Part shown: piece after piece, positions 5,501 through 43,350 of the stretch
Layout: every line of letters begins with the position of its first letter
Position numbering within the stretch: position 1 is the first letter of the stretch
Virus record (IMG/VR): IMGVR_UViG_3300017728_000022
Location: 1-43,350 of that record
DNA length: 43,350 bases
Strand: one strand, 5' to 3'
From: a virus
The notes under the pieces: model-generated
The model's database searches: none
Seen by the model: only the letters and a program-made list of their open reading frames with translations
Told to the model about the DNA's origin: nothing
Translations under genes and position numbers: made by a program

Positions 5501-8500
5501 TAGCATATTTAACCAAAGCTTCTGTTAGCTGCTTAGCAGTAGTTTCATGCTCCAGTATTAATTTTGCTATTGGCGTATTTACCATAAACATACCAGTAGA
5601 ACTTAGTTTCCTAACAGCTCCTCTTTGATCTGCTGTCGATAAATTTATAAATCCAATTACAGCATCTACCTCGTTATTTTGCTTGGCTCTGTTAATTTCA
5701 TCAATTAAATAATTTCTTACTAATATTGCCTCTTTGTTAACTTGATCAATATTATTTTCAAAGTTTGATTTTAATTCTGTTATTTGAACTAATCCTTTTA
5801 GTTTTATTTTATTAACTGTAATGTAGGTTTTAAATCTAGTTTTACCGTCTTTATCTTTATAAGACTCTTTTAATAAATCTATTTTTAGTTTTGATAATTG
5901 ATCCGCTCCAAAAGCAGGAACTAATATATTATTAAATATTTTTTCATTAGTTGTATTACCGTCAACCCCTAAGGTACGTATGGATCTACTTGTTATATTT
6001 AAGTAATTAACTATAGCTTCAACCTTGCTTTTATCATCTGTAGCTTCGTCAAAATCTCGCTTAACCTTAGTTGTAGAATAATTATAACCAATTATTTTTT
6101 GTTGGTACTTATAAATTTTTGTAAATTCTTTTACTCCTTCATTAACTATGTTAGCTACACTAGGTGTTCTTAGTGTAAATTGCAATTTAGATAATACATT
6201 AACAACATATTCTCTATATGCTCTTGTGCTTAATTGGTCTTTTCCAATAGAATGAACAGCTTTAATCAGGTCTTTTGTTGTTCTGATTTGTCCGTTGGTT
6301 ACTTTATTAATGAGCTCCTGCAAGACACCTTTTCTTAACTCGGTAATATTTTCTCTTTGAGCCAATTGCTCTAATACATCTATAGTGTCTTTTTGGTTTA
6401 ATTCTTTACTAAACTGTATTATATCAAAACCTTCTTTCTCGCCTTTGTATCTATCTATCTTAGATTCTAGGTTAGCTAATTGTGCTTCTATAACAATATC
6501 GTTAATAACATCCAAAGAATTCTCTGGAGCCAATTCCTGTATAGATTTTAAATCGCTTAAATTAGAGGGGGTTGCATAGTCTGCTACAACCTGTTTTGCC
6601 AATGGTTCAAGTATTTCTCTAAATAATTGCTTCTGTCTTTCTAGTACAGCAGACTTTTTACCTTTAACAAAATAAGTTAAGAAATCTCTTTTTTCTATTT
6701 TCTTAATTCTATATACAGGGTTGCCTTCTGGGGTAACTTCTCTACCTACTTTTTCAAGAGGAAATAACTTGCCATAGCTCTTCTTAATGCTTTTAATTGG
6801 CAAAGCTTTAGTTATTATATCAAAAGTATTTGGATCGTTTAGAAAGTCTATATAAGATCCAGGGATTACAGCATTAGGGTATACTCCTGTTATAGCCCCT
6901 AGCTTTTTCATTAACTTTTTAAATAACTGTTTTTGTATATAGTTTTCTAACCAAGAAACTATATAAGTGTCTCTACCTTTCTTAACTTCTAAAGTTTCAG
7001 ACAAAGTACCTTTTTGTACTCTTATTCTTATTTCTTTTTCTAACTCAGTTCTAATATCGTTTATTAAATCTTCGTCTACTATGTCTAGCTCATCGAAAGT
7101 ACGTTGGCCTCTTTCTACTGTGCCACTACGATCAATAGACGGTGTATCATTAGTGTCGACCACTCCCTTAGCATCTGATATATCACTAGTAAATTCTTTG
7201 TTAGCGTCTGCGAACATTAAAGATTGCCTAGCTTGTACACCGTATCTTTTTACATATCCTGCTAAATCTTTGTTGACAGCGGGATTAAATGTACGTATTG
7301 CGCTAGCAACCTCAGCTCTTAATATAGACAAAGCATCTTGGAACTCTAATGCTTCAGGTCCAACTTGCTTGAACTTTTGTTGTACTATTGTATTAATATA
7401 CCCTTCAAAAAGAGGTATTAGCTTTTTCTCTAAAGATGCTGGTAATGGCTTACTAGCCTTGTACTCTGTTCTTTCGACACCCTCCATACCTTCATTGTAA
7501 GTGTCCATAATCTTTTTAGACTTTGGATCTCTAGGGCCTAAGTCTGTTGTTCTAACGGGCTTAGCCTCTACTTTCTTTTTAGGCTTTGGTTTAGGTTTAG
7601 CTTCTTGTTTAATAGCTGATCTACCAGAAGCAACCCTTTCTTCGGCTTCCTCTAGTAATCTTTCCGCTTCTTCTACTTTCTTTTCAAGAGTAGGATTATT
7701 AGGGTCTTCTGCAAAAGCATCTAAAGCATCATCTAAAGCATTTTCAAGATTTAATATTTCTTGACTAGAAGAAAATTGCATTGCATTCTCAGGATCTCTT
7801 AATCCTGGATCTTCTGAAACTAGTCTATTTGCTTTTGTTTCTGCTTTTTGTACAGCCTCTACAGCTTTATCACTTATTTCTCCGCCCTCTTTTAAACCTG
7901 ATGTAAATTCTTTAAGCCAGTTGTATACACCACGGGCATCGTCAAAATGTAGGTCTTCATGATTTTCAATACCAGACTTAAGGCCTAACTTGCTTATTAT
8001 GTTGTTAAACCACAATCTTATTTTATCAAACAAAGAAGGGTCAAAATCTAATTCACCAGAAATAACAGCATCAGAAAGATAGTTTAAAAACTCTATAGCT
8101 TGCTTTTCTTTACCTTGTGTTTGCGCTATTTTTTTATTAATTGATCTTCTAACCTTAGCAGGCAGAATCTTCATAAGGTCATCGTAGTTTGCTTTCTGAT
8201 TTAAGTAGCTACCTACTAAAGAGTTAAGTATAGGGTGGATAATTTCATGTGAAGTAACCGTCCATTTACCTGTTTGTCGAGCCATCTCTTTGTTTATAAA
8301 AAGACTACCCGCCCCTAAATATACTCCGTCAGATTCAGCTGCTTGTTTTGCAACCTCAGCTTTTGTTAGGGGTTTAAAATCAGGGTCAGCTTTTATCTTA
8401 CCTTCTTTTACAGCTTTTAAATAAGATCTTTCTTTTCTTTTTAAAGCTCTATATATAGCGGTTACGTAGGCGTCGGTGTTTTCAAATATTCTTGGAAGCT

Positions 8501-11414
8501 TACTTTCTCCAAATCCTAATTTTCTAGCAAAGTTAACAACAGCAGCGGTGTTTTTTGTAAACTTGCCTTCGAAGACTTTATTATCTGCATCTAATGTGTT
8601 TTGCGCGTCTACCAACAATTTTGTTTGTTGTTCTTTTAAAACTTTAAGCTTTTCATCTATTAGGGCCTGTTCTCCTGGTATTGCGTTCTTTCTTTGCTTT
8701 TCTAATTTACTTATGTTTTCCTGAGAGTCTATGACTTTTAAAAGTTCTGTTGACATGCGTCTATCTGATAGAAACTTAGGCATTTTGTTTATATTTCTAC
8801 CAAACTTCTGTATCTCTTGATTTAAGCCGTCAGCTTCTTTTCTTGTTATATCCCCGTTTTTTACCCAAGAATCAAATATCTTTTCAACTTTAGCAGGGTT
8901 TTGTATTAGCTGCCTTAACTTCTGAACTTTTTCACTGTCATTCATTATGTTTTTTCTGCCAGTTAAAGTTGATATGCTACCAACCCCACCAGCAAATCCG
9001 CCAGCAGCAAACGACAATGCTGAAGTATTTACAAAGTCTTCGTAAGTGTAAGTGTCTTTTAAAAGATCTTTTCCAATACCTTTGTTCAAAACTTTATTTA
9101 AAGCAGCTTCACCTATTTGTTGTACATTTTCCTGCACCATTTCTTTAGCGCCTTCGCTTGCTACAATCGCACCAAATTTAGCTAATTTAGTTTGCAGAGG
9201 AGCTGCTACTATTCTTCCGAAGTTTCTTCTTACACCTGCAGCATTACCAGAAGCATTAATAAGCTGTCTAAATAAGCTTGCTGTGGAATTTTTTCCAGTA
9301 CCTTTAAATATCTTATCTATAAGCCCAGTCTTAGGGTTTATTGGTGTTGTTAAAGCAAATAGCGCAGCCATACCTAAACTTGCCTCATTAGCAATAGCTT
9401 CAGATTCTTCCATGCTCATACCAGCATCCAGTGCAGCTGTCTTAGCTTGATTATAGCCAGTCATTGCTCCATACCCGGATTGGAATATTACAGCATCAGC
9501 CATTCCTTTGCTTATACCTAAAGGTATCTTTTTGCCAAATGTGTCCCAAGTTCCTTTTGCTCCCCCAGTTACTCCACCGTAATTAATACCTCTAGAATTA
9601 ATTCCTTTAGTTTTATTATACCCTAACTCCATTCTAGTTAATCTAGCTTTGGATAAGTTTTTAACTTTACCTAGATATTTTAAAGAAGCTGCTCTCCTTA
9701 AAAGTCCTGTGCCTTTTTGTCCAACAATCTGTATTGCTAATTCACCTATAGTTTGTCCTGCTATAATGCTACCACCAAAACCATCAAAGTCAGCTCCGTA
9801 AATGTAATCACCATTTGCGATAGCATCATCTATAGCCTTTCTGTCTTTATCTGAAATAGTTTTAGAAACATCAAATCCGTTTGTTATTTGCTTGATGCTA
9901 CCATTAGCTTGCTTTATATACTCTTTGCCATTTAAAGTAACTTGCTTGCCTTCAGCATATAAGTAATTTATATTAGCTTCTCCTCTTAAAGCTCTTCTGT
10001 TTGACTTGTCTCTTAAGTCTCTAAATTCGTTAGCTTGTCTTCCTTCTCCAATAATTGGCAACACCCAACCAAACACTTTACCGTCCATTTTTACAAAATC
10101 GTAAACGTCTTCTAAACCATCACCTAGCTTATTTAAAGCGCCTACTAAGGTTCTTCCGCTGCCATAAAGACCGGTTTTAACTCCGGTTTCGGTCTCTTCA
10201 ATTCTTGCTTGTTGAGCATCTTCTATGTTTTTAATTTGCTCAGCGTTATATTTGTTTATTGAATCCCAATTATTAGAATTCCAATCTTCTAATTTATTAA
10301 AATCCAAATGAGTACCGTAATTGTACTTCTCAGGATCCTCCATTAGCTTAACATCTGCAGCTCCCATCGCTTCAGGCAAACTCATATTTTTGTATTCAGA
10401 CGGGTTATTTTTAATTTCTTCTAATACTACTCTTTCAACATTTCTACTAGCTGTCTCAATTAAGTACTCGTCAAAATACGATTTAAGATCCTGCTGCATG
10501 GTTAAATTGTCAGGTAAATTAGAGTCGTCTTGCTCATAAGCTCCAGCTTCTTTTTGCTTATCGAACTCGTCTATATATCCTTTTCTATTCAAAAAGCCCT
10601 GGAAGTCACTAGCATTAACGTTAGCTTCTTCTAATAACACCTTGCTTTCAGGATTGTTTATATAATACTCTTCAATAAAATCAGTGCGCTTATCATCATT
10701 GTATGCTGCATTAGAGTTTGTGTCATTTAAGTCTAAGTCGTTGCTGTTATAAAACTGCTCAGCCTGCTCTTCTATACTAACGTCATTTCTATACCCTCTG
10801 TATTTTTCATGAAGCTCAGGGTTGTTGTTTATAGCGGCCTCGTCTTCAGCGTCGTCTTTTCGCACCCAGTTTGATATAGCTCGTGCAAGCGGGCCTAAAA
10901 CATCAGGTATATTTGCCGTCTTACCTAGCGTCAGGCTCTTGTCCGCCTTAACCGCTTTCGCGAACACAGGATTATTTTTTTCCCAGGCCTTCCAAGAATC
11001 CTTAAAAGATTCACTTGTGCCATCAGCCCAACTATTGTTAGGATCGTCATCAAACATCCTAGATATCATAGTACCACTATAGTCGTCGTCTATTAGTTTT
11101 TCTCTTTTACCTCTATTATTTTCTGATACAAATCCACTATCTAGTTGCTCCGACGAACCATCTACCCAATTGGATCCCGTAGCGTTTGACTCCACACTTG
11201 GATCCGCAGCCGCAGAGTCGTTTGTCTTTACTGATTCTTCAGTATTAAAAAATTGTGTGCTAAAATCGCTGAATGATTTAGTATAATCACCAGAAGATTT
11301 AAGAGCACCATATAATTTTTCCTGCCCTGCCGTAGAGCTAAACTGAGTTTTAAAGTCTTCCAATGACTTAGTATATTTACCGCTTTTATTTAAAGCCTCG
11401 TATAATTTTTCCAT
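2568..11414 (-). CDS. Giant polyvalent virion protein with zincin and HAD-phosphatase motifs (2948 aa)
   Basis: This is probably an internal virion protein delivered with the DNA. The N-terminus has two copies of a ~24-aa unit (residues 3-26 and 33-56, KLYxALxxSGxYTKSxxDF). A Gly/Ala-rich region follows at roughly 550-850. SHEIIHP gives a zinc metallopeptidase HExxH at His1056-His1060. Lys/Pro linkers lie around 1270-1300. A HAD-like domain starts at VWDFDDTLA (Asp2119), with ILTARP, AKAKWVIGK and FADDA supplying the other three HAD motifs. A long hydrophobic helix sits near 2745-2768. The mix of catalytic domains in one ejected protein matches the 'polyvalent protein' class of phages and conjugative elements. 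Residue numbers are approximate. It follows the 469-aa protein by four bases. Activity of each domain is inferred from motifs alone. Confidence 0.85.
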   Translation of the reverse strand: MEKLYEALNKSGKYTKSLEDFKTQFSSTAGQEKLYGALKSSGDYTKSFSDFSTQFFNTEESVKTNDSAAADPSVESNATGSNWVDGSSEQLDSGFVSENNRGKREKLIDDDYSGTMISRMFDDDPNNSWADGTSESFKDSWKAWEKNNPVFAKAVKADKSLTLGKTANIPDVLGPLARAISNWVRKDDAEDEAAINNNPELHEKYRGYRNDVSIEEQAEQFYNSNDLDLNDTNSNAAYNDDKRTDFIEEYYINNPESKVLLEEANVNASDFQGFLNRKGYIDEFDKQKEAGAYEQDDSNLPDNLTMQQDLKSYFDEYLIETASRNVERVVLEEIKNNPSEYKNMSLPEAMGAADVKLMEDPEKYNYGTHLDFNKLEDWNSNNWDSINKYNAEQIKNIEDAQQARIEETETGVKTGLYGSGRTLVGALNKLGDGLEDVYDFVKMDGKVFGWVLPIIGEGRQANEFRDLRDKSNRRALRGEANINYLYAEGKQVTLNGKEYIKQANGSIKQITNGFDVSKTISDKDRKAIDDAIANGDYIYGADFDGFGGSIIAGQTIGELAIQIVGQKGTGLLRRAASLKYLGKVKNLSKARLTRMELGYNKTKGINSRGINYGGVTGGAKGTWDTFGKKIPLGISKGMADAVIFQSGYGAMTGYNQAKTAALDAGMSMEESEAIANEASLGMAALFALTTPINPKTGLIDKIFKGTGKNSTASLFRQLINASGNAAGVRRNFGRIVAAPLQTKLAKFGAIVASEGAKEMVQENVQQIGEAALNKVLNKGIGKDLLKDTYTYEDFVNTSALSFAAGGFAGGVGSISTLTGRKNIMNDSEKVQKLRQLIQNPAKVEKIFDSWVKNGDITRKEADGLNQEIQKFGRNINKMPKFLSDRRMSTELLKVIDSQENISKLEKQRKNAIPGEQALIDEKLKVLKEQQTKLLVDAQNTLDADNKVFEGKFTKNTAAVVNFARKLGFGESKLPRIFENTDAYVTAIYRALKRKERSYLKAVKEGKIKADPDFKPLTKAEVAKQAAESDGVYLGAGSLFINKEMARQTGKWTVTSHEIIHPILNSLVGSYLNQKANYDDLMKILPAKVRRSINKKIAQTQGKEKQAIEFLNYLSDAVISGELDFDPSLFDKIRLWFNNIISKLGLKSGIENHEDLHFDDARGVYNWLKEFTSGLKEGGEISDKAVEAVQKAETKANRLVSEDPGLRDPENAMQFSSSQEILNLENALDDALDAFAEDPNNPTLEKKVEEAERLLEEAEERVASGRSAIKQEAKPKPKPKKKVEAKPVRTTDLGPRDPKSKKIMDTYNEGMEGVERTEYKASKPLPASLEKKLIPLFEGYINTIVQQKFKQVGPEALEFQDALSILRAEVASAIRTFNPAVNKDLAGYVKRYGVQARQSLMFADANKEFTSDISDAKGVVDTNDTPSIDRSGTVERGQRTFDELDIVDEDLINDIRTELEKEIRIRVQKGTLSETLEVKKGRDTYIVSWLENYIQKQLFKKLMKKLGAITGVYPNAVIPGSYIDFLNDPNTFDIITKALPIKSIKKSYGKLFPLEKVGREVTPEGNPVYRIKKIEKRDFLTYFVKGKKSAVLERQKQLFREILEPLAKQVVADYATPSNLSDLKSIQELAPENSLDVINDIVIEAQLANLESKIDRYKGEKEGFDIIQFSKELNQKDTIDVLEQLAQRENITELRKGVLQELINKVTNGQIRTTKDLIKAVHSIGKDQLSTRAYREYVVNVLSKLQFTLRTPSVANIVNEGVKEFTKIYKYQQKIIGYNYSTTKVKRDFDEATDDKSKVEAIVNYLNITSRSIRTLGVDGNTTNEKIFNNILVPAFGADQLSKLKIDLLKESYKDKDGKTRFKTYITVNKIKLKGLVQITELKSNFENNIDQVNKEAILVRNYLIDEINRAKQNNEVDAVIGFINLSTADQRGAVRKLSSTGMFMVNTPIAKLILEHETTAKQLTEALVKYAKGEIDFKVLTKILNGAKINLIPKKLDLILNKQGLDGIGRYETDLIKEEISKLKASGKLKFTQYSKSKLAFDPFDMADVVTMSLFGETKAFKNRQGFERTYKYLNPSQQKQVQEEMKKHNLFQFSKTLNQAKAMSNRIDAPNKGISVWDFDDTLATTKSNVLYTLPNGTKGKINATEFALQADQLAAQGAEFDFSEFSKVMNGAKGPMFDKAVARNKKFGNSNVYILTARPANSKYAIHTFLKGIGLDIKLENIFGLGDGTAIAKAKWVIGKVAEGYNDFYFADDAYKNVQAVQEVLEQADVKSKVHQAKIQFAKSLNSDFNNIIQDVTGIDADKKISGNKAKMLGKKKGRFKFFLPPSAEDFAGLLYKLTGKGKKGEAHQAWFKKSLFDPFAKGIREFESYKQNATAIVKQLKKSIKNIPAGLGKINETGFTNEAAVRVYLWTKNGFDIPDLTAEEQQELIEVVNNNPKLKKFADQLDKVLDGYPEPQDSWVAGTITTDAINMINTVKRAEFLKEWQENADAIFTKDNINKLRSQFGDSYVEALQDMLYRMKTGRNRPSGANKLTNRFMNWVNDSVGTIMFFNTRSALLQTLSIVNFINWHDNNPIQAAKAFANQKQFWSDFSMIFNSDFLKQRRSGLKNDVNADDIASAAENETNKAKAVFASLLKAGFLPTQIADSFAIAMGGASFIRNRINMYVAEGMTKAKAEEQAFLDFQEIAEETQQSSRPDRISQQQASPLGRIVLAFANTPMQYMRLSKKAFLDLKNGRGDAKTNITKIIYYTAVQNIIFSSLQAALFAVAFDDDEEKAKNKEIRVANSMLDSILRGTGIYGAIASTIKNIVAEIYTQSEKSRPDYTVAAQRALSISPPIDSKMRKIMSAARAFSYKTTREKMVGYGLDNPAYYAVGQILSAGFNLPVDRLIRKADNIRVALDNETKMWQSIALTLGYSQWDLGLIESGKNKKSNKKGWHNVKRGSWKD

Positions 11415-15533: not shown

Positions 15534-18500
15534 TTAAGTTGGATTAAGTGGATCGTAATCAGGTAAATACGCGCCTGTGCAAACGTCGAATGATACATAA
15601 GCAAAGAGAGCCGGATCGCAAGGCTGCCCAGTTTGACATTGATTGCCAGATGTACCTAGTCCTCCTGAAAATATTTCAGGACCTCCTTGCTCTCCAGCAG
15701 TTGAACCTTTCTGAATCACTGAAAATTGAACTGCGTCCGCGTGAGTATTAAAACTTCCATTTGCATTATAAGTATCAGGTTCAAATGTAAATGTAACATA
15801 GCAATTATTAAAAGTGTCAGGAAAATCATTAGCTACAGTTTGGGCTTGGTCCTCGGTTAAACTTAAATACGATATTCTATAGTTTTGTTTGTTACTACCA
15901 TAAGCTGGAGTGACATATTTTTGTAAACTATTATTTGGATCATTACCCCATTCAGGCTCATTATTAGCGTACAGCTCATTGGTGGGATTTCCTAGTCCAT
16001 CAATATTTCCTTGAGCTACAGCACTTGGTATTGGGTTGCCCACCCCGGGTGGGTGAGAATAAGGATCACCAGTTCGGCTATTTGGATTACCGTTAGCATC
16101 TAAGGTAAGTGAATCGAAATAAGTGGTTCCTCTGTTACCAACATAGAGTCTTCCAATTACAACACCTCCATTCACATGCTTGTTAGCTACCAGTCTATAA
16201 GTACCTCTACCACACGAATGACCACTGGATGCTTTTTGTTTTTGAGGAACTACAAATGTAAGATCATTTGGATCTGTCCAGGTGGTTGGTACCACAGAGC
16301 CTCCTGTAAACGCCACAAAATCTAGATTTAATAAAGCTGCAACTAAGCCATCTTCCTCGACTAGCAAACTATCTGAAAGATTATCTGGGTCAGTAACAGT
16401 TATAGTGTATGAGAATGTGCCCTGTGGTACAGTCCCTGTTATTGATGCTGTTCCTGTAAAACCATTCCCTGTAGTAGTCAACTGTAAAGTGGAAGGTAAA
16501 TTAGATACGCTCCACCCCAATTCTGATAAAGTATGATCAGGATCTATTGCTGTTATACCTGTCCAACTATATGGATCACCAGCGGTAAAAGGACCAGCTG
16601 GAGGCGTTGAGTTTATAACAGGCCCTTCTGGAACTGATATTATTTCAACATCTACAGTAGCAGGAGAACTATATCTAGATCCATTATAACTTCTATAAGT
16701 GAAACTGCCGGCTCCTCCATAGTAATTTAATACATTAGGCGTAAAAATTATTTCGTCTCCATTAACAGCGCCTAAAACCCCATTTAGAGTGTTGTCGGAT
16801 GCAATCTCGTATGTAAGTGGGAAGCCTTGTGGGTCGCTACCTGTCAATGTCAATACGGTACAAGATGTGCAATCTTCTAAAACTTCATAATATTTATTAT
16901 CAGCATTAGGGGGTTGTATTTGAATGGCACAATCAGGTTCTCCGAATACATGCACATTAAATACAGTTACCGGAGGAGCTATTATATTATTGGCTCTACC
17001 GATACCTTGCATTGGAAACTCCTGTGAATCTAAATTATTATTATCGTTGGATGTGAAATATTTGCCCTCTCCTTTTATGTATTGGAAATATTTGTTTTCC
17101 TTATCTAAAAATTGTTTTATAAACCCATTTTGAAGATCTGTGTTCATGTACTGAGTGTACCAACCCTCGTGCAATAAAGTTTCAGAAGTTAAACTTTGCA
17201 ACTGTAAAGCCTCTACTTCTGCTAAAGATAGGTTAGAGTATTGATCATTGCTATACACATATTCTCTTGATTTACTACCTGAGTAATTTAAAGTCTTATA
17301 CTTTTTTACTACGTTAGGCATTTCATTGATTAAGAAATCAACTGAACTATCATATTGAGTGCCATAGAAATTGTTTCTTACAGAATCAGCTGTTCTGTGC
17401 TCCCACATTCTACCGTTTCTAAAAGTATAATATCTATCATTTAAACTTATACCTCCTTCTGTACTAAAAGTTTTTCTGCTTTCCCAGCCTTTCACTTCTT
17501 CTTTAAAAGATACCACTGTATTATTAGGAGTATATATTGACCAATTACCTTTTATAAAAAATCTATCTTGAAATCTACTAGCCCATTCATCAGTTAGTCC
17601 ATCTAAACATAAATTATAAGCTTTTTTATCATCGTCAAAAGAGCCCCATAAGTATTGAGATTGCTTTAAGTTATCAGAATAGAAGTCACCCATACCATAC
17701 CTAGATATATCTTCAAGGCCATCATTTGATAATCTTAAAACAACACCCCTGTTTTTATCAGTAAAATATGTTCTGAATCCATACGAAGCAAAACTTTCAG
17801 GGTTTTTGCTTATGCCAAATTCTCCTGCGTAAGGAACTGCTTGCCCTAATACATTATTGTTAGATGTAACATTAGAGTTACCATCCGCATTAAATAACGC
17901 ATCTTTATTAGCGAGTATACGAAGTATTTTATCTTCGCATAAAGCCACTAAATTGGTATCTCTTGAATGTAATTTTTGTATAGAGCTATATATAGGATTA
18001 AGATCCTTAGTTATTTTTTCTGCTTGTATAAATTGATTTAGGTTATTTACACCAGATGTTGAATTAAATATTTGAGAATATATTAAACCTGTTAATCTTC
18101 TTTCCTCAGCATAAGGCTCTTTTAAAGTGGCTGAAACTATAGGGCCATTGTCTATAGTGACCGCATTGTAATCATCACGTACCCTGTCTGATTCAACCCC
18201 GTTACCAAAAGATATACAATTATGCCAGTCTAGTATATGAGGGTTGCCATACTCACTCATTGGGTAAACCTTAGAAGCCGCATAATATAATTCTAATTCA
18301 GCTGATTCTTTAGGCTCTGTTTCAAATATACCTGGATTATCACTAGTAAAAGTTACTGTGTCAGGAAGCACGGTTAAAAACTCCATGCGAGGTGAGCTTG
18401 CATCATTCATAGGGCGATTGCCTCCTCTAGGAAAAGACCAACCAGCGGGTCCTTGAAATAAACCAGTACCGTTAGCTACTGTATCAATAGGTTTAACTTT

Positions 18501-21365
18501 AAGTTGAAATCTAGTTCTCTTGTTTGATCCCTTGTTGTATTTGTTTCTTTTTGAATTATTTTCGTAATTCCTAACTCTTTGAAATTCTTTGGTCGCTGTT
18601 ATCTCGTATATAACTTGATCAGGATCCTCCTCAAATCTAAAAAGACCGCCAACTTGTAAAAGTATATCTACAGCATCTCTGTATTGATTGTAGACTGTCC
18701 TACCTACATTAAAATCTGCACCTTGTGGCCATATACCCGTGAAAGATACTGTAATATCATTACCTCCTACAGTATAAGCAGCGCCAGTAGAGCCGTTGGC
18801 ATTAGCTACAGACCCTTGATCTACGAACCAACCGGTATAACCCCAGCCTCCGGTAATGTAACTTCTATTAACACCAGTGCCAATAAAACCCATTTTTAAA
18901 GATTGCTTTACTGCATAATTATTTGAGTTAATAGATGATAATATATATTCCTGTAAAGTTGAATCCTTATATAGTTTAATAAAAAACCTACCTTCAAATT
19001 CTGGTTTATCATCAAAATCCTCTGTAGCAAATTGTACATTTAACCCAACAACTTTATTACCATTAGCGTCGGTAGTGAAAGACATGTCGTCCCCAAATTT
19101 ACCCTCTATTGTTATTCTTAGCGTGTTACTGCCGTCGGTTTGAATACTAGTTACATTATACCAATTACTTCTTGTTGTAGTTGTATATACTCTTACTATT
19201 CTTTGCTTTTGCGTTGAATCTAATATAGATCTAGCTGTGCTAGCCTCTAGGGCATCTTCTTTTATATCTATAGCTGTAAAATCTGGTTGAGGTATTCCAG
19301 TGTCAAGTATATTATCACTGCCGTCAACACTACCTGCAACTTTTATTACTTTTCTTAAAAACAGAGGCGCTTCATTTGAAATAGCTACTACTTTGTATTT
19401 AGCAGGTATTGATACAAATTCGTCTTTGTCATGTCTTTTCTTTAGCTCTAAGAACGTAGATTCGTCAACTTTATTTCTTTCTGCAGAAGGAAAACTTATC
19501 CAAACATTACCGTCTTCAGCATCGTACCACCTGTCCATAGCTAGGTTGTAATACTCGTTAGATGTTTCTTTTATATAGTATCTAAAACCCTCGAAACCAA
19601 TAGGGACATTTCCATCGGTTTGAGCTGTTATTTGGTTATACTCAATTGCTTCAGGTTTTTGTAATGTTGTTGCAGCAGATTCCGATGTAAAAACCGGTGT
19701 TTGTCTACCATATTTATCCTGGAATACTACACCTACTTGATATGTTCTCTGCGATTTTATAGATTGGAATGGTACTTTTGGTAAACTTTCACCTGCCAGC
19801 GTTAGTGTATGCTCACAGCTGCCATTAGTGTAGTCACAGTCCCATTTGTCATTATGAGTAATAGTTTGTGTTAAAGTAGGAGATACATCTATATTAAACA
19901 GATCTTTTAAATTAAAGTTTTGAAGATAATTACCATAGACTATTCTATTACCGGTAATTTCTTGAGATTTTGCTACCCTAGGTACGTTATCATAATTTCT
20001 TAATAGCTGATTAGACGGCAATATTGAAGATATGATTTCAGATTCTATATTGAATTCGTTAGCGTTCCATATATCATCACCCTTAATGAATGTATCTACT
20101 ACATACACGCTTGTACTATTACTTTCTTTATACAAAAGATCTACTTCAACAACATCTAAAGGTATATTAGAGGGTCTAAAGCCTTCTATGATACATTGCC
20201 TAAGCTGGTTTACCATACCTAGATTATACCCTTTTTTTGTTTCGTAATCAAATTCACCAGGTAAGAATGCTATTTCAGAGAATGGGGAAAAAGTTGAATA
20301 ATATCCATCTTTATATTTGTACCTGTAAGCAAATCTTGGAAACTTAAATTCAAAAAATGGTGGCTCATCAATTTTAACCTCCCAAAATATTTCTACATCT
20401 TGTACAGTTTCCGGGACTACAAGTATTTTTACTTCAGCATAAGTTTGTGTAACCCCTGGAGGGACAGCCATTACTTCTACTCTTACTTGATATTCGTTTT
20501 CAAAATTTTCATCATCTACAGCAGACCCGTCTAAGGTTAGTATATCACCTACCCTATAAAAAGGATAAGGCGAGCTAGCCCATGTTAAAGTTAATTCCTC
20601 CCCTATTTGCATAGGAATTCTACAAGTAATATCTACACAGTTACCAGTAGCTGCTCCAGGATCTTCTGTTACAAAATTTTGTTGAGTTGTAGTTTCAACT
20701 ATAGCTGGATTACCGTCTTGATCTACTGCTCGTGTTTCAGACAGCTGTAAGCTAAGCGGGACCGTTGGTGCTTTCTTTATAACAGTAATGTCCTCTTCTA
20801 TGAAATCTCTACCATTGAATACCGTATGAGTGAAAAAGTTTCCCGTTAAGCCCGGGGTTGGGGAAGTAGCGCTTTTAAAATCATTTATATTTATTACCTT
20901 AGGCTCAGTTTGATTATCTGTCCAAAATAATAAATCTTCAATTATATTTATACCTGTTATTAAATAATCTTTACTAAAATTTAATATACCTTGTGTGTCT
21001 ACTAAAACCGGGACAACTACTTCTGTTTTTTGGTCGTACTCCGCAATAGCACTCACTCCTACACTTGATATGAACCAGTATATGGTTTCGTTTATTGCAT
21101 CTCTTATTTCACCTATTTTAACAGGGGACACTAAAGCGTTTATATAACCAGATCCCCATTCGGTGTAAACACCTGTGCTTGGATTTTTATAGCTATATAT
21201 TTTAGGCGTATTACCTTGAATATTTTGCAAAGCACCTACATTACCTGTGTCAGACGTAGATATTTCTAAGTTTAGAGCATCTCTATACTCGCCATTTGGA
21301 ACTAAACGCTCATCAAGGTCTTTGTTCATTCTCCCTGACGTAAACGTGTGAATTAATTCTGGCAT
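15534..21365 (-). CDS. Long tail/stabilisation protein with C-terminal Ig/cadherin-like domains (1943 aa)
   Basis: The N-terminus has GRMNKDLDERLVPNGEYRDA at residues 11-30, then LNLEIS and NVGALQNIQGN. I recall this combination as a hallmark of large stabilisation or tail-tube proteins of marine podoviruses and crAss-like phages. The following ~1400 residues are beta-rich with many aromatic residues, as in propeller-like tail proteins. From about residue 1480, a Cys-rich turn (CAIQIQPP, EDCTSCTVLTLTGSDPQG) leads into two Ig/cadherin-like repeats (TLTGSDPQGFPLTYEIASD and ITVTDPDNLSD). A Gly-rich terminal domain with more cysteines follows and may be the receptor-binding end. It follows the 303-aa connector protein by three bases. 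Family placement is from memory of the N-terminal motif; the Ig call is from sequence pattern. Confidence 0.8.
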   Translation of the reverse strand: MPELIHTFTSGRMNKDLDERLVPNGEYRDALNLEISTSDTGNVGALQNIQGNTPKIYSYKNPSTGVYTEWGSGYINALVSPVKIGEIRDAINETIYWFISSVGVSAIAEYDQKTEVVVPVLVDTQGILNFSKDYLITGINIIEDLLFWTDNQTEPKVININDFKSATSPTPGLTGNFFTHTVFNGRDFIEEDITVIKKAPTVPLSLQLSETRAVDQDGNPAIVETTTQQNFVTEDPGAATGNCVDITCRIPMQIGEELTLTWASSPYPFYRVGDILTLDGSAVDDENFENEYQVRVEVMAVPPGVTQTYAEVKILVVPETVQDVEIFWEVKIDEPPFFEFKFPRFAYRYKYKDGYYSTFSPFSEIAFLPGEFDYETKKGYNLGMVNQLRQCIIEGFRPSNIPLDVVEVDLLYKESNSTSVYVVDTFIKGDDIWNANEFNIESEIISSILPSNQLLRNYDNVPRVAKSQEITGNRIVYGNYLQNFNLKDLFNIDVSPTLTQTITHNDKWDCDYTNGSCEHTLTLAGESLPKVPFQSIKSQRTYQVGVVFQDKYGRQTPVFTSESAATTLQKPEAIEYNQITAQTDGNVPIGFEGFRYYIKETSNEYYNLAMDRWYDAEDGNVWISFPSAERNKVDESTFLELKKRHDKDEFVSIPAKYKVVAISNEAPLFLRKVIKVAGSVDGSDNILDTGIPQPDFTAIDIKEDALEASTARSILDSTQKQRIVRVYTTTTRSNWYNVTSIQTDGSNTLRITIEGKFGDDMSFTTDANGNKVVGLNVQFATEDFDDKPEFEGRFFIKLYKDSTLQEYILSSINSNNYAVKQSLKMGFIGTGVNRSYITGGWGYTGWFVDQGSVANANGSTGAAYTVGGNDITVSFTGIWPQGADFNVGRTVYNQYRDAVDILLQVGGLFRFEEDPDQVIYEITATKEFQRVRNYENNSKRNKYNKGSNKRTRFQLKVKPIDTVANGTGLFQGPAGWSFPRGGNRPMNDASSPRMEFLTVLPDTVTFTSDNPGIFETEPKESAELELYYAASKVYPMSEYGNPHILDWHNCISFGNGVESDRVRDDYNAVTIDNGPIVSATLKEPYAEERRLTGLIYSQIFNSTSGVNNLNQFIQAEKITKDLNPIYSSIQKLHSRDTNLVALCEDKILRILANKDALFNADGNSNVTSNNNVLGQAVPYAGEFGISKNPESFASYGFRTYFTDKNRGVVLRLSNDGLEDISRYGMGDFYSDNLKQSQYLWGSFDDDKKAYNLCLDGLTDEWASRFQDRFFIKGNWSIYTPNNTVVSFKEEVKGWESRKTFSTEGGISLNDRYYTFRNGRMWEHRTADSVRNNFYGTQYDSSVDFLINEMPNVVKKYKTLNYSGSKSREYVYSNDQYSNLSLAEVEALQLQSLTSETLLHEGWYTQYMNTDLQNGFIKQFLDKENKYFQYIKGEGKYFTSNDNNNLDSQEFPMQGIGRANNIIAPPVTVFNVHVFGEPDCAIQIQPPNADNKYYEVLEDCTSCTVLTLTGSDPQGFPLTYEIASDNTLNGVLGAVNGDEIIFTPNVLNYYGGAGSFTYRSYNGSRYSSPATVDVEIISVPEGPVINSTPPAGPFTAGDPYSWTGITAIDPDHTLSELGWSVSNLPSTLQLTTTGNGFTGTASITGTVPQGTFSYTITVTDPDNLSDSLLVEEDGLVAALLNLDFVAFTGGSVVPTTWTDPNDLTFVVPQKQKASSGHSCGRGTYRLVANKHVNGGVVIGRLYVGNRGTTYFDSLTLDANGNPNSRTGDPYSHPPGVGNPIPSAVAQGNIDGLGNPTNELYANNEPEWGNDPNNSLQKYVTPAYGSNKQNYRISYLSLTEDQAQTVANDFPDTFNNCYVTFTFEPDTYNANGSFNTHADAVQFSVIQKGSTAGEQGGPEIFSGGLGTSGNQCQTGQPCDPALFAYVSFDVCTGAYLPDYDPLNPT

Positions 21366-39805: not shown

Positions 39806-40096
39806 TTATTTGAAAGTTTTAACCACTTTGGGGCCTTTTATAAATTCTAATTTTTTATTGTAGTGTTCGATAGTAGAATCTATAGAAGTTTCCGCAGCTT
39901 CCATTGTTTCTCTTCTTGTTATATCAACCCACTCGTCGTCTTTTCTAAGATCTTGATATTCCGTTTGGTAATATCCGTTTGGTAATTGAACTATTCGCCA
40001 GTTAGCTTTATCAGCAATATGGTTCCATAATTCTAATCGATCTTCTGTTGGTTGTGGTTGACTACTCCACGAATTAGTCTGGTAATAAACTGTCAT
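39806..40096 (-). CDS. Small hypothetical protein (96 aa)
   Basis: The 96-aa protein starts MTVYYQTNSWSSQPQPTEDR. Its middle is Trp/Tyr-rich (IADKANWRIVQLPNGYYQTE) and it ends in a charged helix (EAAETSIDSTIEHYNKKLEF). I recall similar short proteins beside structural genes of marine phages. It is the first gene after the terminator of the structured RNA, so it probably has its own promoter in 40097-40160 (AT-rich, with TAGTAAAATG on the minus strand). Function is unknown. Confidence 0.65.
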   Translation of the reverse strand: MTVYYQTNSWSSQPQPTEDRLELWNHIADKANWRIVQLPNGYYQTEYQDLRKDDEWVDITRRETMEAAETSIDSTIEHYNKKLEFIKGPKVVKTFK

Positions 40097-40163: not shown

Positions 40164-40201
40164 TACAAAAACACATGGTACTCGCTAAAGTCCATGTGTT
40201 T
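40164..40201 (-). terminator. Intrinsic terminator of the large structured RNA
   Basis: On the minus strand AAACACATGG (40201-40192) pairs perfectly with CCATGTGTTT (40178-40169). Three more pairs extend into the loop, and five U residues follow (GUGUUUUUG). No T tract is present on the plus strand side, which fixes the orientation as leftward. Confidence 0.85.
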
Positions 40202-41182
40202 CGTTATAATTGGGCGCTAATTACAGCACCCCCGCACCAATGAATAGATCAAAGTCGTCCCAAAATACAAGTTTTGCAGTATTCAGAGCCCGTCTAGTAG
40301 AGCGATTAAGCGCTACCTCAAGTAAAAGAAATTTCAGCCATAAGCCTACTCAATCCTTGTCAGTTGCATGTCCGGCTATCGTCGGCGTTTGAAGTACAGT
40401 TACGTTTCATCCGTACTCGACGCATCTCCATATCCAGATCCGAGGGGTCACTGCTGCACCTTTTCATCCCAGTGACTCCTTTTGAGGGGAGCCAAAGAAA
40501 CTACTACGATGCCCGGGTGCTGTTCCTATGGGTAGTCCGTTACTAGAATGCAACCATATCGAGCTGGTGTCCACTTAATGCAAAGCTTTCAGCGCCGCTT
40601 CTGCTGCAGGAATAGGCTTCGATCCGGGCACAATGTTATTCTAGGTTAAAGGCCAAAAAGGGACGCAGGTTAGAGACGGGGTGTACTCCCTCGGTCGCCA
40701 TAAGTTATGGACAGAGGCATGAAGTCGTCAGAGGCCCCGAAGTTCCCCCCGCTAAGGGGGAAAATCAGGACGTAACAGTTACAGAGGCCCCTCTCCAAAG
40801 TCTAGAGGGCAACCGCTCAGGTTAACGTATTAATGCCTTATGTTAAGAAAGGTTATGCACCTTTCAATCCACCGCACCTTTGGCATAGGGCGGGTTTTAC
40901 TCACAGTGCAAGAAGGAAGACCCATACAAGAATAGATGTCTAGGATCGCCGTCTTCACTTTCAACTTCAAATTGGCGACGTAAATCCACTACGAAGCAAA
41001 TTACTACCTATTGTCGCTGACTGTGCAACCTATCACAGGGACAGGGTCCTATCCCCACAAAAAATGCAAGAAGAGACTCAGTGTCACTATATCAAGGAGT
41101 CGTGCAGGGGTGCTGAATGCAGTTCACCCAGCGGCCGCGATATGAATACCGACGAACACCGGGAGTACTAAAAATAGCGCCC
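40164..41182 (-). ncRNA. Large structured non-coding RNA (~1 kb), GOLLD/ROOL-like in architecture
   Basis: About 1 kb without a credible gene is GC-richer than its surroundings and folds strongly on the minus strand. Its ends pair: GGGCGCUA (41182-41175) with UAGCGCCC (40219-40212). Just inside, CAGCACCCCUGCAC (41115-41102) pairs with GUGCGGGGGUGCUG (40237-40224), 14 bp whose single wobble is G-U only on the minus strand. Local hairpins include GAAAGGU/ACCUUUC at 40865-40847, UUCCCCC/GGGGGAA at 40762-40743, GUCACUG/CAGUGAC at 40476-40447 and a two-part stem at 40422-40380. An intrinsic terminator follows at once. The 5' end is unknown; the RNA could be cut from the late transcript or have its own promoter. 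Closed ends, many helices, size and phage location recall GOLLD and ROOL RNAs, but I cannot confirm either family, and it may be new. Confidence 0.85.
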
Positions 41183-41193
41183 ATGTACTTTAT

Positions 41194-41874
41194 TTATAAT
41201 TCAGAGAATGCGATGCCGTTCTTTTTTTGATCGTCAGCGATTCCTCCAGTTAAGTTTATTTTTCTAAGAGTGTGTGAATATGTCACTACTCCTTTTTTTG
41301 TTTTTTTAATTCTAAATCCTATAGGCAATTTCGTGTTGTTAGGAAAATGATTAGTTATAGAACTGTAGCCTGAAAGCAATGGAAATGATAGTTTAAAGTA
41401 ATAATCAAATTTAAAATCATACCAATCACCCGCTGCATTATTTATAGGCAGAGAAACAGGTCTTACATCGTAAGGAGGTGCTGTGTTTGCTGGCTCTTCT
41501 ATCTTCATACCAGAAGATTTGTTTCCTGAAGCACTCGCTCCTCTTTTTCTTTTCTTAGTAAATCTCTCTATAACAACCTCGTAAGTTACACCAGGCTCTA
41601 AAGTTAGATTTTCAAACTCCATGTATAATCGTGGTACTGCCACCACCATACTAGTATTGTTCCAGGCTCTTTGAGAACTGTAGGTTTGGTCTTGGTTCCA
41701 CCTTAACTTTATACCTACTAAATCTAAATCAGCAGCCTCGTTCTCACTAATGTAATCAGTTAACTCTTTGACAGAGAAATTCTTTGTAACATTGTTATTC
41801 TCAACATCGGTACCTATTAATTTATCTGTACCCTTTATATTGGTGTCTAATGCGTATGTACTTATTCTTGCCAT
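41194..41874 (-). CDS. Putative fibre/virion protein with MARISTY N-terminal motif (226 aa)
   Basis: The start chosen is MARISTYALDTNIKGTDKLI, one base after the stop of the preceding gene; the longer frame (from 41901) would overlap it by 26 bases. This N-terminus followed by GTDVENNNVTKNFSVKELTD is one I recall on many structural or fibre-like proteins of marine Bacteroidota phages, where it may be an attachment module. The rest is beta-rich (LTLEPGVTYEVVIERFTKKR) with a basic patch near residue 110. It ends just before the structured RNA begins. Confidence 0.75.
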   Translation of the reverse strand: MARISTYALDTNIKGTDKLIGTDVENNNVTKNFSVKELTDYISENEAADLDLVGIKLRWNQDQTYSSQRAWNNTSMVVAVPRLYMEFENLTLEPGVTYEVVIERFTKKRKRGASASGNKSSGMKIEEPANTAPPYDVRPVSLPINNAAGDWYDFKFDYYFKLSFPLLSGYSSITNHFPNNTKLPIGFRIKKTKKGVVTYSHTLRKINLTGGIADDQKKNGIAFSEL

Positions 41875-41875
41875 G

Positions 41876-42121
41876 TTAGTCTGTATTATAGTTTGCGCCA
41901 CTTTCGCTCTGGGTACCTTGCCCCTCGTTTCCTCTGTTAGATTTTACAGAAACAAACTTTTGTCTTTTGTGATCATAGTCTTGTCCTTCTGCTTCAGACG
42001 GATTCTTCCTACGTTCTCTTTGAGCGTGAGCTTTCTTCGCTTTTCTAGCAGGTGACATCGCATAGGCTTTATCTCTTGCCGCTTTGTCTCTTCGTGCTTG
42101 TGGCGATAACTGTTGTCTCAT
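41876..42121 (-). CDS. Small basic protein with SPAR motif (81 aa)
   Basis: This 81-aa protein starts MRQQLSPQARRDKAARDKAY, then AMSPARKAKKAHAQRERRKN and EGQDYDHKRQKFVSVKSN. It is very basic and probably helical in the first half, with a polar disordered tail. I recall relatives containing the DYDHK block in flavobacterial phages. It is the first gene of the leftward late operon, so its upstream region (42122-42340) should contain the late promoter. Function is unknown. Confidence 0.75.
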   Translation of the reverse strand: MRQQLSPQARRDKAARDKAYAMSPARKAKKAHAQRERRKNPSEAEGQDYDHKRQKFVSVKSNRGNEGQGTQSESGANYNTD

Positions 42122-42340
42122 ACTCTCTATGATTACGCTGTTTTTATTATTATTAATCCAATAGTGACAATAGGTTATTACTATTTCTATATAACTAGCT
42201 AACGTCGTAGACGAGAAAAAAAATATAATAAAAATTTTTTTAGATACTTGGAACGATTGTGTTACGCTATGCTATACAATTTTTTTTTGCCGTGCGGAAA
42301 GTTACTTTTTTTTAGGGGGTCCCCTGTGTTTTTCCCGGGT
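42122..42340. promoter_or_regulatory. AT-rich divergent intergenic region
   Basis: This ~220-bp spacer between the leftward late operon and the rightward small genes holds no credible gene. It has several A and T homopolymer runs (around 42218-42243, 42281-42290 and 42306-42313) and the sequence cgctatgctatac at 42263-42275. The inverse of that sequence recurs near 43189. The late promoter should lie here, but I see no clear TTTG/TAnnTTTG pair on the minus strand. Confidence 0.55.
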
Positions 42341-42493
42341 CTGGCCTGGAGTCTGGCCTTTGCCTGGGTCTGGGTCCGCAGCTGTCCGAGCCTGGCTGTC
42401 CGGATTCCGTGCAGGGTTTAGCCTTTTTCCTGGGCAGGATCCTGGTCCTGGTCCGCGGCCCTGGCTGTGCTGTAGCCTGGTCCTGAACTCTGG
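42341..42493 (+). repeat. GC-rich block of strand-biased CTGG repeats
   Basis: Twelve CTGG tetramers occur in 153 bp, mostly within CCTGG, TCTGG or TCCTGG contexts, and I see no CCAG on the same strand. Composition is sharply GC-rich against an AT-rich spacer. It lies directly upstream of the first 40-nt promoter element. Possible roles are protein-binding iterons, a replication or recombination site, or a structured leader; none can be chosen from sequence alone. Confidence 0.65.
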
Positions 42494-42503
42494 TCCTGAA
42501 AAT

Positions 42504-42543
42504 TTTGCAAGCGTACTACGCTGGTCACCCGATAATATATATG
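42504..42543 (+). promoter_or_regulatory. Early promoter-like element, copy 1
   Basis: TTTGCAA begins the element and GATAATATATATG ends it exactly 40 nt later, with a GCGTACTACGC palindrome between. It lies 22 bases upstream of the 52-aa membrane protein start. Confidence 0.75.
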
Positions 42544-42565
42544 AATAACAAATAACAATAACAAT

Positions 42566-42724
42566 ATGAAAACTAACAGAACATTCCACCACAACAGACT
42601 GATCAACATCGCAACAGGCATCGTGGTCTACGGCACAACAGCATTCATTGGCCTGAGCCTGATCGCAATCGTAGCACACATGATCGAGCACGGCGCGCCA
42701 ACATCCTTTGGGATCTACGGCTAG
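42566..42724 (+). CDS. Small two-segment membrane protein (52 aa)
   Basis: A 52-aa frame starts MKTNRTFHHNRLINIATGIV. It has a hydrophobic stretch around residues 14-38 (IATGIVVYGTTAFIGLSLIA and IVA) and ends in HGAPTSFGIYG. It is preceded by promoter copy 1 and an A-rich leader (AACAATAACAAT) and is followed four bases later by promoter copy 2, so it has its own unit. Codon use is GC-rich (ATC, GGC, CTG, AAC), unlike the late genes. A host-membrane takeover role is possible for such an early peptide, but no family is recognised. Confidence 0.7.
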   Translation: MKTNRTFHHNRLINIATGIVVYGTTAFIGLSLIAIVAHMIEHGAPTSFGIYG

Positions 42725-42727
42725 AGC

Positions 42728-42767
42728 TTTGCAAACATAACACGGTGACACACCGATAATATAAATG
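42728..42767 (+). promoter_or_regulatory. Early promoter-like element, copy 2
   Basis: TTTGCAAAC to GATAATATAAATG, again exactly 40 nt, lies 23 bases upstream of the 50-aa gene start. The A-rich leader TATAACAAATAAA follows, as in copy 1. Confidence 0.75.
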
Positions 42768-42790
42768 TATAACAAATAAAACTAATAATT

Positions 42791-42943
42791 ATGTATCAAA
42801 CAAATCAACAAGCATGGGATGAAGTCATGCGAAACATTAAAGAGTCTGAGCGCAGAACTGTAATCTGCCAGCAGATGTTCGGTCAGGACAACCTGATAGG
42901 TCTAACAAACGAGCAGCGTGATCTGTTCTGGGAATCGATCTGA
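42791..42943 (+). CDS. Small acidic/polar early protein (50 aa)
   Basis: A 50-aa frame begins MYQTNQQAWDEVMRNIKESE and ends NEQRDLFWESI. It looks helical, with no membrane segment and one cysteine. It is driven by promoter copy 2, and its TGA stop overlaps the next ATG (TGATG), so the pair is translationally coupled. Codon use is GC-rich as in the neighbouring early frames. No recognised family; small helical early proteins often bind and modify host enzymes, but that is only a possibility. Confidence 0.65.
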   Translation: MYQTNQQAWDEVMRNIKESERRTVICQQMFGQDNLIGLTNEQRDLFWESI

Positions 42944-43101
42944 TGCTGGTTCGTATCGACACGAAGAACTGGCGCGGCAATTATAACAGTCGCGTGGTTC
43001 GGTTCAGCAACGAGCAGCACCTCAGCAATTATCTGCGCGTGTGCTATCGGGATGAAGCCACATCCAAAGTGATCGGGCACGAGATCCTGGAGCGGGACTA
43101 A
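42943..43101 (+). CDS. Small basic early protein (52 aa)
   Basis: A 52-aa frame starts MLVRIDTKNWRGNYNSRVVR and ends SKVIGHEILERD. It is compact alpha/beta by pattern, with many Arg and Asn residues. It overlaps the preceding stop by one base (TGATG), confirming a two-gene unit. Codons are GC-rich (CGC, CTG, GTG). No motif is recognised. Confidence 0.65.
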   Translation: MLVRIDTKNWRGNYNSRVVRFSNEQHLSNYLRVCYRDEATSKVIGHEILERD

Positions 43102-43122
43102 GATCCTGGCTCTGGCATCTGG
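43087..43122 (+). repeat. Second, shorter CTGG cluster
   Basis: Four CTGG tetramers lie in 36 bp, starting inside the 3' end of the 52-aa basic protein gene. GATCCTGG occurs twice here and once in the larger block at 42341-42493. The same strand bias is seen. Confidence 0.5.
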
Positions 43123-43168
43123 TCCGGCTTACGGCCTGCTTTTGAAATAGGAGCGGAAGAGTATACTC

Positions 43169-43202
43169 CGCGGTACGCCGCGTATAGCGTATAGCATACG
43201 CT
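43169..43202 (+). promoter_or_regulatory. Two adjacent perfect hairpins / operator-like palindromes
   Basis: CGCGG-TACG-CCGCG (43169-43182) and AGCGTAT-AGC-ATACGCT (43186-43202) stand back to back between the two-gene unit and promoter copy 3. No T tract follows, so they are more likely operators or an mRNA 3' end structure than a standard terminator. TATAGC occurs three times around them. The 43102-43211 gap holds no gene. Confidence 0.6.
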
Positions 43203-43211
43203 GTATAGCAC

Positions 43212-43251
43212 TTTGCAAACGTAGTACGTGTAGTTATCGATAATATATATG
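43212..43251 (+). promoter_or_regulatory. Early promoter-like element, copy 3
   Basis: TTTGCAAACGTAGTACG through GATAATATATATG, exactly 40 nt, lies nine bases after the second palindrome. No gene start follows before copy 4, so copies 3 and 4 form a tandem pair. Confidence 0.75.
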
Positions 43252-43290
43252 AATACAAAATAATACTAAACTTAAATAGAAATAAACAAA

Positions 43291-43330
43291 TTTGCAAACG
43301 AAGTACGAATAGTATTCGATAATATAAATG
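43291..43330 (+). promoter_or_regulatory. Early promoter-like element, copy 4
   Basis: TTTGCAAACGAAGTACG through GATAATATAAATG, exactly 40 nt, lies near the window's right edge. The gene it serves must start beyond 43350. Confidence 0.75.
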
Positions 43331-43350
43331 TAACAAAGTAACTTAATAAA

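Follow-up and report, generated by a model that had tools for sequence, protein, structure and literature searches.

Organisation of the locus

The window, as the whole stretch of DNA analysed is called here (43,350 nt; IMG/VR record IMGVR_UViG_3300017728_000022), carries a 971-nt element, which occupies a tail-fibre-like slot at the head of the leftward structural operon, between a 235-aa gene upstream and a 96-aa gene downstream. The flanking genes all lie on the minus strand, as does the terminator-like hairpin that follows the element (Table 1). Read on the minus strand, the element starts with GGGCGCTA (41182) and ends with TAGCGCCC (40212). Two related IMG/VR contigs are referred to throughout: 3300003580_000034 (L003/L007/L014; hereafter L007), which has a full-length homologue in the same place with about 92% DNA identity, and 3300009495_000338 (L016), whose GroEL and TerL are each 92% identical to those of the window.

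The GC content of the element is 49%, compared with 36% in the window. All six reading frames are interrupted by stops, with a longest stop-free run of 78 codons, and the three indels between the window element and its L007 homologue, each of 1 nt, also count against coding; the element is non-coding, neither strand carrying a plausible gene. Its sequence recurs identically in the IMG/VR contigs L002, L004 and L005 and therefore an assembly accident is unlikely as its origin.

A hairpin followed by five U (ACACATGG..CCATGTGT) begins about 10 nt past the 3' end of the element and folds at -18.2 kcal/mol (z -4.0), the copy in L007 being identical and that in L016 differing in the loop only. It is missing from the consensus terminator scan, its loop of 13 nt exceeding the 8-nt limit of that scan. 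The first-pass annotation had described a gene-free structured RNA of about 1 kb with paired ends, raised GC and a terminator directly behind it in a Bacteroidota-type phage, and these features and the coordinates were all borne out, the minus strand being the RNA strand. The octamer TATAAATA, which adjoins the 5' end of the RNA, occurs 12 times in the window against 8.2 expected and is thus not over-represented; its designation as a candidate phage promoter element is speculative.

Table 1. Features of the RNA locus in the window (all on the minus strand)
Feature	Position	Strand	Evidence or remarks
235-aa upstream gene	41194..41901	-	about 45-aa N-terminal stretch common to variable tail-fibre-like proteins of relatives
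TATAAATA octamer adjoining the RNA 5' end	41191..41198	-	overlaps stop codon of upstream gene; in window, L007 and L016
Structured non-coding RNA, 971 nt, P1 first to last base	40212..41182	-	paired ends, fold, compensatory changes against L007, no coding frame
P1 closing helix, 5' strand GGGCGCTA / GGGCGCUA	41182-41175	-	all eight bases paired; a single compensatory change, A-U to U-A, in L007
First local hairpin (RNA positions 13-63)	41120..41170	-	20 pairs: 3 compensatory, 1 one-sided, 1 broken
P2 long-range helix, 5' strand CAGCACCCCTGCAC / CAGCACCCCUGCAC	41115-41102	-	14 pairs, one U-G; 3 compensatory, 0 broken
Internal hairpin (RNA positions 412-449)	40734..40771	-	15 pairs in window fold: 1 compensatory, 1 one-sided, 1 broken
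P2 long-range helix, 3' strand GTGCGGGGGTGCTG / GUGCGGGGGUGCUG	40237-40224	-	pairs with P2 5' strand
P1 closing helix, 3' strand TAGCGCCC / UAGCGCCC	40219-40212	-	pairs with P1 5' strand
Terminator-like hairpin ACACAUGG..CCAUGUGU, then five U	40167..40201	-	z -4.0; conserved in three lineages
96-aa downstream gene	39806..40096	-	conserved in relatives just before GroEL

The TerL relatives of the phage are phages of Flavobacterium, Cellulophaga, Tenacibaculum and Maribacter, and by its terminase it falls into the group of the Flavobacterium elemo phages and the Cellulophaga phages. A longer near-identical record (IMGVR_UViG_3300024428_000003; L190) encodes the phage's own sigma factor. Elsewhere in the window, a phage GroEL (37372-38928) adjoins the RNA slot throughout the clade, a 1943-aa protein (15534-21365) combines a crAssvirus muzzle C-terminal domain with a putative Ig domain, and a 2948-aa protein (2568-11414) has no Pfam match. 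Between the divergent gene blocks lies a GC-rich tract rich in CAGGACC/CCAGG (42330-42500), present in an altered form in L016, and on the plus strand at 42500-43350 repeated promoter-like units (TTTGCAAA, about 20 nt, GATAATATATA) precede rightward, probably early genes.

Paired helices and compensatory changes

The window and L007 elements differ by 74 substitutions, besides the three indels. When the fold predicted from the window alone was tested on L007, 8 compensatory, 14 one-sided compatible and 16 broken pairs were found among 305, whereas random placement of the same substitutions leads one to expect 0.77 +/- 0.86, 16.6 and 26.3, respectively, with none of 2000 placements reaching eight compensatory pairs. 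An independent pair counter distributed the compensatory changes over P1 (one), the first hairpin (three), P2 (three) and the internal hairpin (one), and their number fell from 8 to 0-1 when the partner strand was slid by 1-3 columns; the counter's own shuffle control is weaker (2/500), as two sequences permit only swaps of the 3' letters for each pair.

An 8-bp pairing of the two ends and a 14-bp inner helix with one G-U had been noticed on first reading, with covariation proposed as the check. Both helices, P1 and P2, were located; a 14-bp helix with at most one G-U was seen in none of 25 shuffles, the longest shuffle helix being of 13 bp, and in L007 each of the four varying pairs of P1 and P2 has a compensating change, with no pair broken, while not one of 20,000 random placements reached four. 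Within the two homologous sequences compared, the first reading thereby passes the covariation check, whose failure would have refuted it. Selection on this outer architecture is well supported by the comparison, and the compensatory changes lend support to P1, P2 and the first hairpin. The interior fold beyond these is a prediction. Only 102 of about 305 pairs are common to the single-sequence folds of the window and L007, and the RNA class is known from only two distinct sequences, about 92% identical. A consensus fold gives 10 compensatory and 0 broken pairs, but it had been fitted to both sequences.

That the element is non-coding junk or a decayed gene is scarcely credible, even in a fast-changing slot such as this one, given compensatory changes far above chance, retention at full length in two diverged phages and no tblastx match of the element to the genes of the relatives. 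RNA positions 100-350 and 800-950 show few changes, the middle and both termini many; no constraint was read from this uneven change, nor from higher conservation than in the neighbouring regions, because identity along the two phages is mosaic.

Folding energy and strand preference

The sense strand of the element folds at a minimum free energy of -333.8 kcal/mol (z -2.9) and the antisense strand at -276.3 kcal/mol (z +0.16), the z values ranging from -2.9 to -3.1 on the minus strand as against about +0.2 to +0.5 on the plus strand. In the window element and the L007 homologue alike, the sense strand is the more stable by 43-57 kcal/mol. As a control, coding segments of this phage were folded too, and some reached z -3 to -4.8; folding energy was therefore rejected as sole evidence of a structured RNA, and the convincing evidence is that of the compensatory changes.

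Counted on the plus strand, the pairs comprise 6 compensatory and 24 broken ones. The G-U pairs, the terminator and the gene direction favour the minus strand as the RNA strand. These observations also bear on a possible role of the repeats at the DNA level, in duplex or cruciform form, for instance as a packaging site or a replication or recombination signal. Inverted repeats near the major strand switch of the genome would suit such a role, but it is very improbable, since the stability of the fold is strand-specific (z -3 versus about 0), the G-U pairs of the minus strand (U77-G in P2; C-G to G-U at 68/959) become A-C mismatches on the other strand, and most relatives, which must likewise replicate and package their genomes, are without the element.

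Comparison with known RNA families

GOLLD and ROOL assemble into RNA-only cages, a 14-mer and an 8-mer, respectively, and ROOL, like GOLLD, is often found beside tRNA genes; HEARO is tied to IscB-type elements. The first-pass annotation had suggested either membership in a class of the GOLLD or ROOL type or a new class, with a search of the Rfam models for GOLLD, ROOL, OLE, HEARO and the group I and group II introns as the check. No Rfam family, these included, matched the window or L007 element at gathering scores, and with permissive filters and E values up to 10 only chance matches, nothing credible, were obtained for both; membership in a known class was thereby dropped, while the alternative of a new class held. 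The element is not a detectable member of any known RNA family.

GOLLD was further set aside in view of its neighbourhood, no tRNA gene being present in the window or in the 60 kb of the longer near-identical record, and ROOL for want of a covariance-model match at either threshold; the element is also longer than ROOL and has another genomic setting, the likeness lying in a large phage or prophage RNA with many helices. OLE and HEARO are likewise large structured bacterial RNAs, unmatched by their models here, and no IscB-type element was seen. A template RNA of a diversity-generating retroelement was rejected in the absence of a template repeat matching the fibre-like genes, the longest match of the RNA elsewhere in the phage being at most 12 nt. 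GOLLD often lies near tRNA islands and has one well conserved and one less conserved region (PMC12286853). It shares with the element a length of more than 800 nt, an elaborate fold (predicted for the element), a non-coding nature and a phage origin (PMC12286853). The resemblance to GOLLD and ROOL is one of kind only, in size, phage origin and elaborate fold. As a long non-coding stretch with compensated helices the element falls within the general kind of large structured phage RNAs, and within this known kind it looks like a new class, represented by two homologous sequences.

A separate observation concerns tmRNA-like sequences in the longer record L190, outside the window and about 5 kb from the large RNA. 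An 82-nt match on the minus strand (L190:15188-15269; 57.3 bits, above gathering) spans the whole tmRNA model with the mRNA-like middle missing, i.e. the tRNA-like domain alone. Eight relatives have similar matches of 75-150 nt, and of all nine matches three exceed the cut-off; Cellulophaga phage phi38:1 has a full tmRNA of 362 nt. Just 5' of the tRNA-like domain, L190:15300-15700 (minus) contains a tag-like frame (SNDENVLDADHAFNNKLDE*), a T-arm-like GAGGTTCGAATCCTC and segments recurring in relatives, e.g. GCTAGACGAGTAGCTTAATTAGG..CATAAGTGAATAGCTAG; the stretch may represent a cluster of small RNAs or else a tmRNA that has been split or rearranged.

Distribution of the element and its genomic slot

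Of the 61 clade record handles searched, many being fragments, only those of the window's own phage (several contigs, 100% identity) and of L007 yielded the RNA. Examination of 80 TerL relatives and of 79 loci of an 81-aa gene brought to light neither another homologue of the RNA nor a similar gap downstream. A DNA similarity search of 50,697 phage records returned short chance matches only, exact core patterns of 20 and 22 bases were absent from 84,980 bacterial and archaeal genomes, and patterns of 19-26 bases matched only already known contigs in IMG/VR.

In other relatives, the stretch from the 81-aa gene to the 96-aa gene or to GroEL is taken up by protein genes instead, some of them collagen-like. 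Several of these slot proteins share with the 235-aa protein a stretch of about 45 aa at the N terminus, a pattern known from variable tail fibres, and the slot genes presumably encode tail fibres, although Pfam names none of them. The variety of these genes indicates that the slot is a hypervariable, tail-fibre-like island and, judged from the loci compared, the element is a rare accessory RNA cassette within it.

In L016 the end of the upstream gene (GGATTCTC.GAATTATAAATAAA) and the terminator hairpin are as in the window, and between them the large RNA is replaced by a structured element of about 231 nt (L016:1248-1589), which starts with UAGGGC and ends with GCCCUA as paired ends, folds at z -2.4 and includes three 23-nt tandem repeats. 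No similarity to the window RNA was found beyond the flanks, and homology of the two was rejected, the local score being that of shuffles.

The sporadic presence of the large RNA, its GC content above that of the genome, its terminal complementarity and the unrelated insert found at that position in L016, where a weak sub-threshold match to IS605-orfB-II was obtained (22.1 bits against a cut-off of 88), could be taken to indicate an RNA-based selfish or mobile remnant whose protein is absent, such as an intron-like ribozyme, a transposon guide RNA or a retron-like RNA. Such an origin is nevertheless quite improbable: neither the window nor the L007 element has an Rfam match to group I, group II or HEARO models, no match of 13 nt or longer links the RNA to the rest of the phage, and the compensatory changes argue for an RNA that is maintained rather than decaying. 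The flanking gene is uninterrupted, ending at an identically placed stop codon in the window, L007 and L016, on which ground a self-splicing intron was rejected as well.

Probable function and significance

The reading tentatively preferred, with slightly less than even confidence, is of a new large trans-acting RNA, a scaffold or particle, whose synthesis would accompany that of the first leftward genes and which would be released at its terminator. Leftward transcription of the RNA would go along with that of the first structural-operon genes or begin just downstream of them, the transcript ending at its own hairpin terminator; the P1 closing helix, the 5' hairpin and the 14-bp P2 would shape it into a compact multidomain RNA; and, alone or with protein, it may serve late in infection as such a scaffold or particle. 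Within the hypervariable slot it is a dispensable accessory cassette. Transcription, action in trans, particle formation and late timing are what we infer here. In favour of this reading are the compensated pairs, the more stable sense strand, the missing coding frame, the common strand of terminator and flanking genes, the identical copies in further contigs and the unrelated paired-end element ahead of the same terminator in L016. This reading is weakened by having only two distinct sequences, similar to each other and sharing 102 predicted pairs, and by the terminator directly after the RNA, which also fits a role in cis.

A role of this kind, as a cis-acting transcription or mRNA element, is the main rival and a serious one, though rather unlikely; at the head of the operon, the folded RNA and the terminator would bring about antitermination or attenuation, or stabilise a 3' end. 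The element would gate the passage of polymerase to the GroEL, terminase and capsid genes by a logic like that of the lambda late leader or HK022 put, small antitermination RNAs that act on polymerase, with which the element shares a structured RNA and a terminator ahead of a late operon. This role agrees with the place of the element, which separates the first two genes from the remainder of the leftward operon and has the terminator directly behind it, and with the terminator hairpin kept in L016 though the preceding RNA is replaced. However, known antitermination RNAs are, to our knowledge, all far smaller than about 970 nt, and most relatives run the same operon without the RNA and without the terminator; the operon therefore does not need them, and the element is dispensable among relatives.

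A bolder form of the preferred trans-acting reading, considered doubtful, takes the slot as one for structured RNAs in a lineage of Bacteroidota phages, in which the RNA of about 970 nt would found a new class of giant ornate phage RNAs and form an RNA-only particle late in infection; the smaller, unrelated RNA of the sister phage L016 would then suggest that large RNAs are exchanged as accessory 'RNA morons' in the manner of tail-fibre genes.

We know of only a handful of bacterial RNAs near this size and complexity, those of phages being without known function. If the element indeed represents a new, unrelated class, giant structured RNAs would have arisen more than once in phages and, as the clade has cultivable relatives among the Flavobacterium, Cellulophaga and Maribacter phages, it would provide an independent system for asking whether phages in general make use of RNA-only cages.
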